Below are positions 2,668-33,391 of a DNA stretch of 33,391 nucleotides, one piece after another. Position numbers and translations under genes: made by a program. Position 1 is the stretch's first letter; each line of letters opens with the position of its first letter. Source of the stretch: a virus; the IMG/VR virus record IMGVR_UViG_3300046170_000013, positions 1-33,391 of that record. One strand, 5' to 3'. Below the pieces are notes generated by a model. That model made no database searches, was not told the origin of the DNA, and was given only the letters and a program-made list of their open reading frames with translations.

Positions 2668-4310
2668 ACATCGTCTACTGTGACATAGAAACTGACGGAC
2701 TAGACCCCAGTGTAATCTGGTGTGCTGTCTGTCTACACAACGGAGAAAGTGAGGTAATATGCAATGAGCAAGATTTCAAGGATTACGTGGCTCGCAAAGC
2801 GCCGGTTAACTTTATATTCCACAACGGAATTGGCTTTGATGTTCCTGTGGTTGAGCGTCTTTGGAACTTTACTTTTGACAGGAGCATGGTCACTGACACT
2901 CTAGTCCTCTCTAGGCTTGCTGACCCTAGTAGGTCTGGTGGACACTCTCTACGTAACTGGGGAAACATCTTAGGCTACGCCAAGGGAGACTACGAGGATT
3001 GGACTAGGTTGACTCCTGCCATGATCGACTACTGCATACGTGACGTAGAGTTGACTGAGGCGGTGTACAAGAGACTACGTGTGGAACTAGACGGTTTCTC
3101 AAGGGCGTCACAAGACCTAGAGCACGAGGTGCAGTGGATCATACAGGGACAGGTGAACAACGGGTGGCTACTAGATCAACGCTTGTGCCACACGCTGTGC
3201 GCTAGGTTCAAGGAGAGTATGTATGCTATTGAGGAAGAACTCCAGAGGGTGTTCCCACCTATTGTTGAGGAAAGGTGGTCTGAGAAGACAGGCAAGCGCC
3301 TTAAGGATAAGGTTACGGTCTTCAATCCCGGTTCGCGTCAACAAGTGGCTGAACGACTTGAAGCTAAGGGTGCGATATGGTCGGAACTCACGCCGTCCGG
3401 AAGGCCGCAGGTGGACGAGAAGACACTTGAGGAGAACAAACATATACCGGAGGCTGTGCAGGTCTTAGAGTACCTGTTGTTACAGAAGCGCTACGCTCAA
3501 GTCTCCTCTTGGATAGAGCACGTTAAGGACGACGGCAGGGTACACGGCAGGGTTACAACAAACGGTGCAGTTACCGGACGAATGACGCACCAGACCCCAA
3601 ACATGGCACAGGTTCCTTCAGTTAACTCACAGTTTGGCAAGGAGTGCCGTGACTGCTGGATAGTACCAGAGGGACGCAGGCTAGTGGGTGTTGACGCTAG
3701 TGGACTAGAGCTACGTATGTTGGCTCACTACATGGGAGACGAGGAGTTTACTAATGTCCTACTTAGAGAAGACATTCACACCAGAAATCAAGTTGCTGCA
3801 GGACTTGCAACTAGACCTCAGGCAAAGACTTTCATCTATGCTTTCCTCTACGGAGCGGGAGACGCAAAGATTGGAAGCATCGTCGGAGGAACTGCAGGAG
3901 ATGGCAGTAAACTTAGGAGGCGCTTTCTACGAAACACACCTTCTCTTGAAGCTCTACGAGAACGAGTTGGAGAAGCGTCTAGGAAAGGTCACCTCGTTGG
4001 GCTCGACGGACGAAAACTCTGGGTCAGGTCAGAACATAGTGCACTGAATACCTTACTACAGGCAGCAGGTGCTATCGTTATGAAGAAGGCTCTCGTACAC
4101 TTAGATCACTACGCAACGCAACACAAGATTGACTACAAATTCATAGGGAACGTGCATGACGAGATACAATCGGAGGTGGTTACAGAACAAGCAGAGAAGT
4201 ACGGGTGGCTTGCAGTCGAGTGCATCAAGGCGGCTGGTCTTTCATTTGACCTCAGGTGTCCTCTCGACGGAGAATACAAGGTCGGACAAACGTGGTCGGA
4301 GACACACTGA
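2664..4310 (+). CDS. DNA polymerase, family A, with 3'-5' exonuclease (T7 gp5-like)
   Basis: The 548-residue protein opens with exonuclease motif I (YCDIETDG; D7, E9) and has polymerase motif A VDASGLEL (D344), the O-helix block QAKTFIYAFLYGAG (K388, Y392) and motif C VHDE (H498-D499-E500). Start is TTG at 2664, overlapping the primase TGA, with GGAG 8 bases upstream; exonuclease motif I begins a few residues in, so no later start fits. T7 gp5 is 704 residues; most of the shortfall lies in the thumb, where the thioredoxin-binding loop would be, so it probably does not use host thioredoxin as T7 does. Tyr392 matches E. coli Pol I position 762 and T7 Tyr526. Confidence 0.96.
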   Translation: MNIVYCDIETDGLDPSVIWCAVCLHNGESEVICNEQDFKDYVARKAPVNFIFHNGIGFDVPVVERLWNFTFDRSMVTDTLVLSRLADPSRSGGHSLRNWGNILGYAKGDYEDWTRLTPAMIDYCIRDVELTEAVYKRLRVELDGFSRASQDLEHEVQWIIQGQVNNGWLLDQRLCHTLCARFKESMYAIEEELQRVFPPIVEERWSEKTGKRLKDKVTVFNPGSRQQVAERLEAKGAIWSELTPSGRPQVDEKTLEENKHIPEAVQVLEYLLLQKRYAQVSSWIEHVKDDGRVHGRVTTNGAVTGRMTHQTPNMAQVPSVNSQFGKECRDCWIVPEGRRLVGVDASGLELRMLAHYMGDEEFTNVLLREDIHTRNQVAAGLATRPQAKTFIYAFLYGAGDAKIGSIVGGTAGDGSKLRRRFLRNTPSLEALRERVGEASRKGHLVGLDGRKLWVRSEHSALNTLLQAAGAIVMKKALVHLDHYATQHKIDYKFIGNVHDEIQSEVVTEQAEKYGWLAVECIKAAGLSFDLRCPLDGEYKVGQTWSETH

Positions 4311-4789
4311 TGGAGATAGCAATGAATTACAAAAGAGGTGAGGGTAAGTACTACAAAGACAATCCTGAGTCTGTTTGGAAGCGTGACCAGACTAAAATGT
4401 TTGTAAACGGGAAGTACATATCTAAGGCTCACCCGCTACACAAACCCGGACGCTACAAGACGTTTACTGACGCAGCTTTTGACAGCCTAGCGAAGTACGA
4501 ACTGAGTCGTGAGGGACAGGTGTACATCATAACCAACCCTAACTTCCCTGAGTGGGTCAAGGTAGGCATGGCTGTGGACTCAGAGGACAGACTCAACGGA
4601 TACCAAACGTCGTCACCGTTCAGAGATTACTCGCTGTTCACTAACTGGCCTGTGGCTGACCGACGATCTGCTGAGTCAGAGGCACACAGTCTGCTAGAGA
4701 AAACGTATGGTCGTAAGGGTGAGTGGTTCAATTGCACACCAGAGCAAGCCAGAGACTCTATCTCTGAACTAATGGAGCAACATAAATGA
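4310..4789 (+). CDS. GIY-YIG-type (T5orf172/MUG113-like) nuclease-fold protein
   Basis: The C-terminal part has a GIY-YIG layout: VYIIT (71-75) for the first strand, VKVGMA (83-88) for the second, R94 in DRLNGYQTSSP, E122 in an AESEAH helix, and a closing GEWFNC. This pattern matches the T5orf172 branch, whose members occur in phages and are presumed nucleases. The N-terminal 65 residues are basic. I choose ATG 4310 (TGATG overlap with the polymerase stop, CGGAG 8 bases upstream); ATG 4322 is also possible. An in-frame ATG at 4256 lies inside the polymerase and is unlikely. Position between polymerase and exonuclease suggests DNA processing. It could also be a freestanding homing-type endonuclease. 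Confidence 0.8.
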   Translation: MEIAMNYKRGEGKYYKDNPESVWKRDQTKMFVNGKYISKAHPLHKPGRYKTFTDAAFDSLAKYELSREGQVYIITNPNFPEWVKVGMAVDSEDRLNGYQTSSPFRDYSLFTNWPVADRRSAESEAHSLLEKTYGRKGEWFNCTPEQARDSISELMEQHK

Positions 4790-15449: not shown

Positions 15450-16963
15450 ACTGTTTTACCCATTAGTGCTAATACGTTAATTTCTTGGAGGGATAAAGCA
15501 GACCCGTTAATGTCAGCTTCTAGTCCTATCGTAATAATACTTCCGTTACCTGTTGCTTGAACAGCGTTTCTAGTCGTAAGCTCACCACCAGTAAACTCAC
15601 CGATAGCAAACTCATCAACACCGAAGTACGCAGGTACTTGGTTGCCTACAGTAAACTCGTAAGTTCTAAAGTCCGTAGCTAGATCATAAGCCCACTTCAT
15701 AAACACTGTTGCACCAGCAGCACCAACCAGAGTTGGCCTGAGTTTCTTTAGCAACTTTGTTTTAGCAGGATCACCAAACGTCAGACCCGGACTGTAGTAC
15801 CTAAAACGATATGCTGTTGTGTTGTCAGAGTAACTTGAGTACGTCCCTAGTCCATCAGACGTTCCTATGTACAACGTACCATCAGTTGTAACTTCAAATG
15901 ACTTGTGTGGAATAGAAGTCCACCGTGTAACTCTGTACGCTCCGTTCTCAAGTCTACCCTTCAGATCAAAGCAGTACGCTGTGAGTTGATCTGGGAACGT
16001 AATGATGTAAAAAGAATTTTCAGGACTGTAGACAGACGCCGTAGGTAACGTCCTGTTGTTAATCAAACTAATAATCTCAGTCTTTACATTCAGGCTTAGG
16101 TCAGATATAGGCAACGACTTCTCTTGTATAGTACGTCCTAAGCTCCTGAGTCCTGTGTTAGACATAAACAAAACATCTGTGCCAATGTGCTGGACAGAGT
16201 TTCTACAGATGCACCCAACACCAGCTACCGTGTCAACCAGAGCCATACTAGCTGGACTAGAAGCTCCTCCGTACACAAGTATGCTGTGCTTGCCAAAGAT
16301 AATCAGAGTGTTGTTGTGTGCTGCCAACGCCCTAACTTCATCGTACCCGTCAGGCCAAGCCTTAGATACATCTATAGAACCACTGGAACCACCAGTAAAG
16401 TCTGCTCCAATCAAGAGATCAGACCAGTAAATTGTTTGTGTGTCTGTTGCGTTATCCACAACCCACAGGCGTCCGTAAGCTGCCAAAGCCTCGTGGCACT
16501 TTAAAGTTGCTGCTGTAGCACCGCCGTTAGCCACAGTAAACGTACGTAATCCCGTAGCGTTGTCGTACACTAGAGGATCGTAACCACGTTGGAAAAAGTA
16601 AGCCTTGTCGTTAAAGTTTACAATCTTCCAGTTGTTAGCTGTGATAGTGTATGAGCCGGGAGTTACGTCAGTTAACGTAGTTGTCCCTGTCATAATCTTG
16701 TTGTTACCAGCAGTAAATACTACTTCGTTACCCGCATCATCGTAGAAGTAATGAATCTTGTGTACGTAGTCAGTACCTAGTGCAGTCTTGTTAGTAGTAA
16801 CAACATCAATACCCTTACGTGCAGCAATACGTCCACGCTTGTCAATCACAGCGTTGTCAGCAACGTCAGCGTAAGAAGGATCCTGTGCAATCGGAGAATC
16901 TTCTGTGTTGACTCCTTTAAATGCAGGAGCAACTAAGTTAATACTTTGTAGCGGCTGTGCCAT
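15446..16963 (-). CDS. Tail hub / stabilisation protein (P22 gp10-like), beta-propeller
   Basis: The 505-residue product is beta-rich with repeated blades (AAYGRLWVVDN..., IIFGKHSILVYGG, DVLFMSNTGLRSLG, YIITFPDQLTAYCFD), as in the propeller-like nozzle proteins of podovirus tails such as P22 gp10 or T7 gp12. The N-terminal block VNTEDSPIAQDPSYADVADN and then RKGIDVV is a typical opening for this group. It would sit below the adaptor encoded immediately upstream in the transcript. The assignment is by pattern and order. Confidence 0.78.
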   Translation of the reverse strand: MAQPLQSINLVAPAFKGVNTEDSPIAQDPSYADVADNAVIDKRGRIAARKGIDVVTTNKTALGTDYVHKIHYFYDDAGNEVVFTAGNNKIMTGTTTLTDVTPGSYTITANNWKIVNFNDKAYFFQRGYDPLVYDNATGLRTFTVANGGATAATLKCHEALAAYGRLWVVDNATDTQTIYWSDLLIGADFTGGSSGSIDVSKAWPDGYDEVRALAAHNNTLIIFGKHSILVYGGASSPASMALVDTVAGVGCICRNSVQHIGTDVLFMSNTGLRSLGRTIQEKSLPISDLSLNVKTEIISLINNRTLPTASVYSPENSFYIITFPDQLTAYCFDLKGRLENGAYRVTRWTSIPHKSFEVTTDGTLYIGTSDGLGTYSSYSDNTTAYRFRYYSPGLTFGDPAKTKLLKKLRPTLVGAAGATVFMKWAYDLATDFRTYEFTVGNQVPAYFGVDEFAIGEFTGGELTTRNAVQATGNGSIITIGLEADINGSALSLQEINVLALMGKTV

Positions 16964-32297: not shown

Positions 32298-32338
32298 CCG
32301 CAGTCACAGCCACAGATGCTACTCTTGAGAGTACTCAC
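32276..32338 (-). CDS. Possible tiny Cys-rich peptide, 20 aa
   Basis: A GTG-start frame overlapping the end of the small terminase and the start of the M15 gene encodes a peptide ending ICGCDCGCQEEDS, with four alternating cysteines. It spans the 21-base gap between the two genes. No good Shine-Dalgarno is seen, so this is tentative. Confidence 0.25.
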   Translation of the reverse strand: MSTLKSSICGCDCGCQEEDS

Positions 32339-32774
32339 CTTCAATTGTGCTTCCGTCTTCAGTGCCTCCAAGAATTTCCGTGCTTCCGACACCAGTGATG
32401 TTAATCTGTATTGCACTTCTTCCATTGTCTTTTACCACCTCTTTTTCAAATGCACCTACTGGGAGTATTCTGTCCATCACTAGCTTCCATGCTGCTGCCT
32501 GATTCTTGTGATCGTGGTCTAAAGCAGCCTCAAAGATAGTCTCTAGTACCTTAACGGACTTAGGACTAGCTAACATCCTAGCCTTGTACTCATTAATTAT
32601 AGTAGCATCACCCTTAGGCCTGCCTACTTTACCTCTAGACCCTGCAGTTTTAGCCTTAATTTCCTTTTGCTTAGGCCTACCTCTGGGTCTTTTTTTAATA
32701 TTAATCTCTTTTCTAGCTGCTGCTTGGGCTTCTAGGGTGTTTTCTTTGGTTTCTAGGGTGTCACCTGACGACAT
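32319..32774 (-). CDS. Putative terminase small subunit with AT-hook motifs
   Basis: The N-terminal third is basic with two AT-hook-like motifs, KKRPRGRPKQK and GKVGRPKGD; the rest is helical (IINEYKARMLASPKSVKVLE, then HKNQAAAWKLVMDRILPVGA). The second block recurs in marine podovirus proteins annotated as small terminase, from memory. It is the first gene of the late operon, about 1.4 kb upstream of the large terminase. It would bind the packaging site. ATG at 32774 has AGGAG very close, so the exact start could vary. Confidence 0.72.
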   Translation of the reverse strand: MSSGDTLETKENTLEAQAAARKEINIKKRPRGRPKQKEIKAKTAGSRGKVGRPKGDATIINEYKARMLASPKSVKVLETIFEAALDHDHKNQAAAWKLVMDRILPVGAFEKEVVKDNGRSAIQINITGVGSTEILGGTEDGSTIEGEYSQE

Positions 32775-32855: not shown

Positions 32856-32915
32856 ATACAACACTCAATCTTTAGTCCCGCACCTGCTTCACTAAATACA
32901 TCCTAATATCTACCT

Positions 32916-32965
32916 TATATTATACCATACTTTTACTCAAAAGTCAAGCTTTATTTTATGTAAAT
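32916..32965 (-). repeat. 50-bp direct repeat, copy B (promoter-bearing)
   Basis: Same orientation as copy A at 26911-26960, differing at five positions by my alignment. Four of the differences are clustered just upstream of the extended -10 and leave both promoter boxes intact. Confidence 0.9.
32919..32947 (-). promoter_or_regulatory. Late promoter B (sigma70 type) for the whole late operon
   Basis: On the minus strand TTGACT (32947-32942), 17-base spacer, TATAAT (32924-32919), extended by TGG. It is the only strong candidate ahead of the small terminase gene and should start the main late transcript. Confidence 0.87.
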
Positions 32966-33018: not shown

Positions 33019-33150
33019 GGGTAAACACGAGGTAAAACAAGGCGCTAGGTAGGGCATAAGTAACATGAATAGTCCCTATTTTTCTAAATTCACCTTCTGG
33101 TGTACAGAGGTGGCTACAACTATAATTAACACAAGTCAATCCCCTCCCCC

Positions 33151-33162
33151 CGTGTCAACACG
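33151..33162. repeat. 12-bp palindrome, copy 2
   Basis: CGTGTCAACACG shares the core GTGTCAACAC with 33007-33018. It is followed by GAGGCCC, and a related CAACACGGGAGGCCC occurs at 33281-33295, so the motif family extends into the 40-bp units. Confidence 0.6.
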
Positions 33163-33176
33163 AGGCCCACCCCAAG

Positions 33177-33236
33177 TTATCCACAGGTTACACACAGGCG
33201 CAGAGTTATCCACAGGGCCAACATAAGTTATCCACA
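33177..33236 (+). promoter_or_regulatory. Three perfect DnaA boxes
   Basis: TTATCCACA occurs at 33177-33185, 33206-33214 and 33228-33236, all on the plus strand, each within AGTTATCCACAGG. This is exactly the E. coli high-affinity R1-type DnaA box. A degenerate relative, TTACACACA, lies at 33188-33196. Three perfect 9-mers in 60 bases is very unlikely by chance. Confidence 0.85.
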
Positions 33237-33244
33237 GGCTCCAG

Positions 33245-33338
33245 AGTTGGCACGGATCTTGCTATAGCACAACACATGCCAACACGGGAGGCCCCCAAAG
33301 TTGGCACACTTATTGCATAGGCAAAACTCATGCCAACA
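33245..33338. repeat. Two 40-bp palindromic units
   Basis: Units at 33245-33284 and 33299-33338, starting 54 bp apart. Each begins AGTTGGCAC and ends CATGCCAACA, so the outer GTTGGCA and TGCCAAC form a 7-bp inverted repeat; TTGC and GCAA-like blocks form an inner one. The ends are identical while the middle has diverged, which suggests selection on the arms. Confidence 0.85.
33247..33263 (+). promoter_or_regulatory. Sigma54-like promoter element, perfect consensus match
   Basis: TTGGCACGGATCTTGCT fits the RpoN consensus YTGGCACGRNNNTTGCW at every defined position, with GG and GC 10 bases apart. A second, weaker match on the same strand (TTGGCACACTTATTGCA) is at 33301-33317. Both point toward the presumed early operon beyond the window. 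They fall inside palindromic units, so they may instead be protein-binding arms. Confidence 0.45.
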
Positions 33339-33391
33339 TCAGGGGATGTAACATGTGAATATTTACGTAGACACGAGTGTGTGAACCAGTG

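Follow-up and report, generated by a model that had tools for sequence, protein, structure and literature searches.

Replication origins opened by DnaA, such as bacterial oriC and the plasmid and phage origins of P1 (oriR) and pSC101, contain clustered copies of the box TTATCCACA in the same orientation, at 11-bp spacing (a 2-bp gap), in non-coding DNA, and a GC-skew minimum lies at or near them. Such boxes recur in the phage DNA analysed here, the linear virus record IMGVR_UViG_3300046170_000013, whose entire stretch of 33,391 bp we refer to as the window, and in its lineage a skew minimum lies at or near them, in a place where gene orientation flips as well. The locus differs from the DnaA-dependent origins in that the phage itself encodes a primase-helicase and a polymerase, with no initiator gene recognised. 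Moreover, the phage boxes are optional and are exchanged for promoters, and an unwinding element that only box carriers possess was not found, an AT-rich flank being present for every cassette type.

The second system that resembles the locus is the sigma-54 (RpoN) promoter, to which exact TGGCAC-N5-TTGC(A/T) sites correspond, also at positions that were not selected for. Sigma-54 polymerase requires an activator. Unlike the known promoters, those of the locus are present in a phage of the lytic type, where they are arranged in tandem or as palindromes facing each other; no activator gene was recognised, nor any activator-binding site. The third system is the primary origin of T7, composed of promoters and an AT-rich region. 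Promoters upstream of replication genes and a T7-like primase-helicase and polymerase are common to both, but the promoters described here belong to host classes (sigma-54 or sigma-70) and there is no phage RNA polymerase.

Origins with DnaA boxes are known, and so are sigma-54 promoters. A search of open-access full texts found neither of them described for this phage group, nor any account of a lytic phage with sigma-54 arrays at its start region or of an exchange between DnaA and sigma-54 modules. One putative sigma-54-like protein has been described for a T7-type Pectobacterium phage (PMC7693777), and in a Pseudomonas phage software has predicted an origin containing DnaA boxes (PMC11512268); both are unlike the cassette described below.

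A preliminary description of the window had proposed a T7-like podovirus without a T7-type RNA polymerase in the window. The lack of the polymerase was confirmed: no RNA polymerase gene is present in the window, and none in ten relatives over the 3.3-5.1 kb that separate the first leftward gene from the primase gene; the longest ORF between the cassette region and the primase gene in those relatives is 238 aa. The affiliation had to be revised. The phage is not of the Autographiviridae (T7) type, as the single-subunit phage RNA polymerase gene was not found, and the layout is that of the Zobellviridae/Cobavirinae (ICBM2, P12053L, SIO1, VpV262, MEP401), which have replication genes in one direction, structural genes in the other and no annotated RNA polymerase. 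On their replication side these phages encode a primase, polymerase, exonuclease, endonuclease and, in most, a class II ribonucleotide reductase. In the window, the rightward genes encode a single-strand-binding protein, a T7-like primase-helicase, a polymerase, a Cas4-type exonuclease, an endonuclease and a class II ribonucleotide reductase, and the leftward genes encode terminase, portal, capsid and tail proteins, so that gene order and divergent layout equal those of ICBM2 and P12053L. In contrast, similarity of the capsid and portal proteins to this group is weak (22-23% for the portal against MEP401/402), and none of the five records contains a DnaA-box or sigma-54 array in the stretch scanned. 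No closely related isolate was found, the best matches being 48% for the primase, 62% for the reductase and 28% for the capsid. A search for the host with the terminase in GTDB genomes gave only six marine or saltwater MAG contigs from unrelated phyla, which are probably mis-binned. Between the polymerase and exonuclease genes (4256-4789) lies a gene with a T5orf172/MUG113 domain, possibly a homing-type nuclease or a regulator.

The divergent intergenic region of the window

The box cluster is located near the right end of the window. The features of interest are the following:

1057-2667, + strand: primase-helicase, a main rightward replication gene (PHROG 239, E 8.5e-179)
32319-32774, - strand: first leftward gene, 151 aa, without family match, in the terminase-gene cluster
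32919-32947, - strand: sigma-70 promoter TTGACT-N17-TATAAT with TG before the -10 (11 of 12 consensus matches)
33141-33151, no strand assigned: C-rich element CCCCTCCCCCC, left border of the variable cassette (C-rich pattern conserved in relatives)
33175-33187, + strand: DnaA box 1, AGTTATCCACAGG with core 33177-33185 (exact match, repeat unit)
33188-33196, + strand: weak DnaA-like box TTACACACA, two mismatches, 11 bp after box 1 (read directly)
33204-33216, + strand: DnaA box 2, AGTTATCCACAGG with core 33206-33214 (exact match, repeat unit)
33226-33238, + strand: DnaA box 3, AGTTATCCACAGG with core 33228-33236 (exact match, repeat unit)
33248-33263, + strand: sigma-54-type -24/-12 promoter 1, TGGCACGGATCTTGCT (exact consensus match, repeat unit, motif family-wide)
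33302-33317, + strand: sigma-54-type -24/-12 promoter 2, TGGCACACTTATTGCA (exact consensus match, repeat unit)
33368-33391, + strand: start of the right border, -35-like TAGACA and GTGTGTG (conserved in relatives; cut by the window end)

As the preliminary description had stated, three perfect boxes of the same orientation are present, each within a copy of a 13-base repeat. Their stretch is non-coding and lies to the right of the last leftward gene, whose start is at 32774. Exact TTATCCACA occurs four times in the whole window against 0.28 expected, a number reached in none of 100 shuffles. The fourth copy (16452-16460) is isolated and lies within the antisense of a structural gene. An AT-rich stretch had also been placed beside the boxes. 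Such an element does exist (32896-32935), but about 240 bp to their left, and the bases adjoining the boxes are not unusually AT-rich. It holds the strong sigma-70 promoter, which is directed leftward, to the terminase and structural genes. The stretch 32911-32959, which includes this promoter, shares 92% identity with intergenic DNA of Pseudoalteromonas phage Slicky01 that bears no annotation. Rfam and tRNA searches gave no hits.

Ten bases past the 13-mer of box 3 starts the first of two sigma-54-type promoters, the sole exact ones in the window and overlooked in the preliminary description. The second follows at a distance of 54 bp. Both are contained in 38-bp imperfect palindromes (33246-33283 and 33300-33337), each of which places a second sigma-54-like site opposite the promoter on the other strand. 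For promoter 2, this facing site is at 33321-33335 (- strand) and has one mismatch (TGGCAT). The DnaA boxes are upstream of a sigma-54-type promoter, at about -46 to -97; DnaA is not known to activate sigma-54 polymerase. In relatives, the TAGACA and GTGTGTG of the right border are followed by TGTNGGACCCTC.

Exchangeable modules in related phages

Relatives were fetched by protein similarity only, with the first leftward gene, inferred from its position to encode the small terminase, as the anchor. The 700 bp upstream of this gene were collected and dereplicated to 71 regions, and 444 segments of the same contigs served as controls. A wider set of 91 also includes some loci fetched by pattern. 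The relatives are phylogenetically non-independent, so that all counts given here overstate significance.

Among the 71 regions, 33 have at least two DnaA boxes, 30 a sigma-54 promoter, 22 a sigma-70-type promoter with a dyad, and three none of these, and neither two boxes nor a sigma-54 site occur in any control segment. The regions hold 123 perfect DnaA boxes, and 74 of the 83 one-base variants differ at positions 3 and 5, which are the degenerate positions of the DnaA consensus TTWTNCACA (PMC5835720). The cluster of the window matches this consensus above chance. In the set of 91, with its pattern-fetched loci, the spacing between boxes is 11 bp in 63 cases, 22 bp in 19 and 12 bp in 15. Because the variants are nearly all at positions 3 and 5 and the spacing is mostly 11, 12 or 22 bp, these comparisons identify the boxes as true DnaA-type boxes.

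The sigma-54 sites were assessed in the same regions. TGGCAC/T is followed by TTGC after exactly five bases in 120 of 174 sites, all other gaps up to 20 together accounting for 10, and 120 sites are present in the region against five in the rest of the 810 kb. At positions that were not selected, the set of 91 (again including pattern-fetched loci) has R at position 7 and A/T after TTGC. These preferences are those of the known sigma-54 consensus.

The modules lie between conserved borders. The C-rich pattern on the left is found in 49 of the 71 relatives and in no control, and TTGACA/TAGACA with GTGTG on the right in 55 of the 71 and in three of the 444 controls. Three types of cassette content can be distinguished: D, an array of DnaA boxes; S, one or more sigma-54 promoters, often palindromic and facing each other; and T, a sigma-70-type promoter (TTGACA-N17-TA(A/G)TCA or similar) with a TGTGGTA/TACCACA dyad. 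The 71 relatives divide into D (18), T (17), S (16), D+S (12), D+T (3), S+T (2) and none (3). About 15 would be expected in the last class under independent assortment, and T tends not to co-occur with D or S (Fisher P 2e-9); both the expectation and the P value are inflated by the relatedness of the phages, and the T pattern was defined from members without D and S, which favours the latter result.

One close relative of the window (L088) is 97-99% identical over the parts compared, up to base 33172, and then continues with a T-type cassette; identity to L087 and L014 ends at the same base, and the module of box 1 starts 3 bp to its right. Another (L085) matches the window to 33178 and again from 33241, and thus lacks the boxes (33179-33240) and retains the sigma-54 units. 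Conversely, two further relatives (L100 and L098) share the cassette at 94-97% identity and the flanks at 83%; for L100, the values are 97% for the cassette and 83% for the left flank. Finally, the two ends of contig 3300044723_000506 represent two alleles with flanks about 95% identical by eye, a box pair being present among the sigma-54 units at one end only; this may reflect a mixed assembly. On the level of DNA sequence, these comparisons show a cassette of one or two of the three module types between conserved borders, swapped as units among close relatives.

The search of related genomes proposed in the preliminary description gave a divided answer: clustered boxes are present at the divergent intergenic region of 33 of the 71 relatives, but the others, even one that is 97-99% identical, carry other modules. 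Its proposal that host DnaA opens the origin fares similarly. The boxes look selected, and do so in many relatives, but they make up just one of three or more exchangeable types and a nearly identical relative has none, so that DnaA cannot be a fixed, essential initiator of this lineage. The same modules recur in independent contigs from many samples and in none of the 444 controls. Although the window is a linear fragment that ends inside the region, chance or an assembly artefact is refuted by these comparative data and can be dismissed.

Possible roles of the cassette

Sigma-70 promoters, sigma-54 promoters and DnaA boxes interchange at this site in polymerase-less phages, for which the firing of the site would be the simplest common role. 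Our favoured explanation, in which we place about even confidence, is that the boxes belong, as one module among several, to an exchangeable cassette by which a polymerase-less marine podovirus fires its start region, likely its origin plus early promoter. Host DnaA would oligomerise head to tail on the boxes, and the neighbouring -24/-12 sites would be bound by host sigma-54 polymerase. Either of them, like the sigma-70 type elsewhere, may open or transcribe the region, with melting by DnaA or host polymerase as the first step and RNA priming or early transcription as the next. This would allow the phage helicase-primase and polymerase to load on the opened region, and/or would switch on the rightward early and replication genes. 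In such a scheme, DnaA would act as a helper that transcription can replace.

The cumulative GC skew, a check that the preliminary description had put forward, has its minimum between -18 and +1012 bp of the start of the anchor gene in 17 of 17 contigs in which the region is internal. The position agrees with an origin, but gene orientation flips there too, which makes the indication a weak one.

A serious rival, to which we assign a smaller though substantial probability, is that the cassette purely controls transcription of the rightward early genes and that replication starts elsewhere. DnaA, bound upstream of the promoter conserved in the right border, would then serve as a transcription factor, and infection would be coupled to host physiology through alternative promoters of the sigma-54 and sigma-70 types. 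Two of the three module types are indeed rightward promoters, a TTGACA-like element is conserved after the cassette (55/71), and the borders look like promoter flanks. However, some arrays comprise as many as about 10 boxes spaced by 11 bp, which is closer to oriC than to a regulatory site, and it would be odd for boxes to substitute for promoters.

The preliminary description had alternatively considered a decoy that holds DnaA away from the host origin. In its wider form, the boxes might also change the nucleotide state of DnaA, as datA or DARS do, and the sigma-54 sites would likewise sequester sigma-54 polymerase. Both kinds of sites bind scarce host proteins, and in ColE1 a stretch of 70 bp containing three boxes is known to reactivate DnaA (PMC5835720). 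Titration would not need a fixed position, whereas the sites are few per genome, lie at one fixed spot and give way to a sigma-70 promoter in close relatives. We consider this explanation unlikely, and our data add nothing in its favour.

It is also improbable that the swapping is itself the function, the modules being equivalent and the origin or control region being changed to evade satellites, host defence or competing phages. The differing histories of cassette and flanks and the pair of alleles on opposite ends of a single contig fit this idea, but no satellite or defence system was identified, and it would account for the variation and not for what the cassette does; it is moreover compatible with the firing of a start region.

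More tentatively, the favoured explanation could be extended to a lytic lineage with a plug-in initiation slot, in which DnaA, sigma-54 polymerase and sigma-70 polymerase would be interchangeable openers that close relatives swap by recombination, and which might comprise the first sigma-54-started lytic phages. If the firing of the start region is correct, a widespread group of uncultured marine phages uses a choice of host start-up proteins, often changed, in place of a polymerase or initiator of its own. Such phages would serve as a natural experiment to learn which host factors are capable of opening a phage origin. Their infection would be tied to the replication state of the host through DnaA, or to its stress and nitrogen physiology through sigma-54, and how replication starts in polymerase-less relatives of T7 would become a directly testable question.

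Further elements in the lineage and elsewhere

Several other sequences were observed in or near the cassette. No function was recognised for the proteins encoded immediately to its right in one relative (L083). The palindrome-like GGTAATATTNAC, possibly a phage operator or origin element, recurs to the right of the cassette (for example at offsets of ~615 in L098, ~665 in L028 and ~615 in L107); 20 of the 71 regions and one of the 444 controls contain it. Tandem GGTAACACAG repeats after the DnaA boxes form further cassette content in L122 (offset 370-435) and L067 (offset 370-430). In the group L131-L161, box arrays reach ~10 copies on both strands and are followed, in box-rich members, by the AT-rich element AAAGTTTTTTCGAGTTTTTGCA.

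Both motifs were also found in viral contigs more generally. Of 114 contigs fetched with the triple-box pattern, 36 belong to this lineage or its kin. Tandem pairs of sigma-54 promoters are present in many viral contigs without protein similarity to the window (among them L167, L177, L183, L223 and L248), and a scan of IMG/VR for such pairs gave at least 120 matches, against a rough chance estimate of about one.
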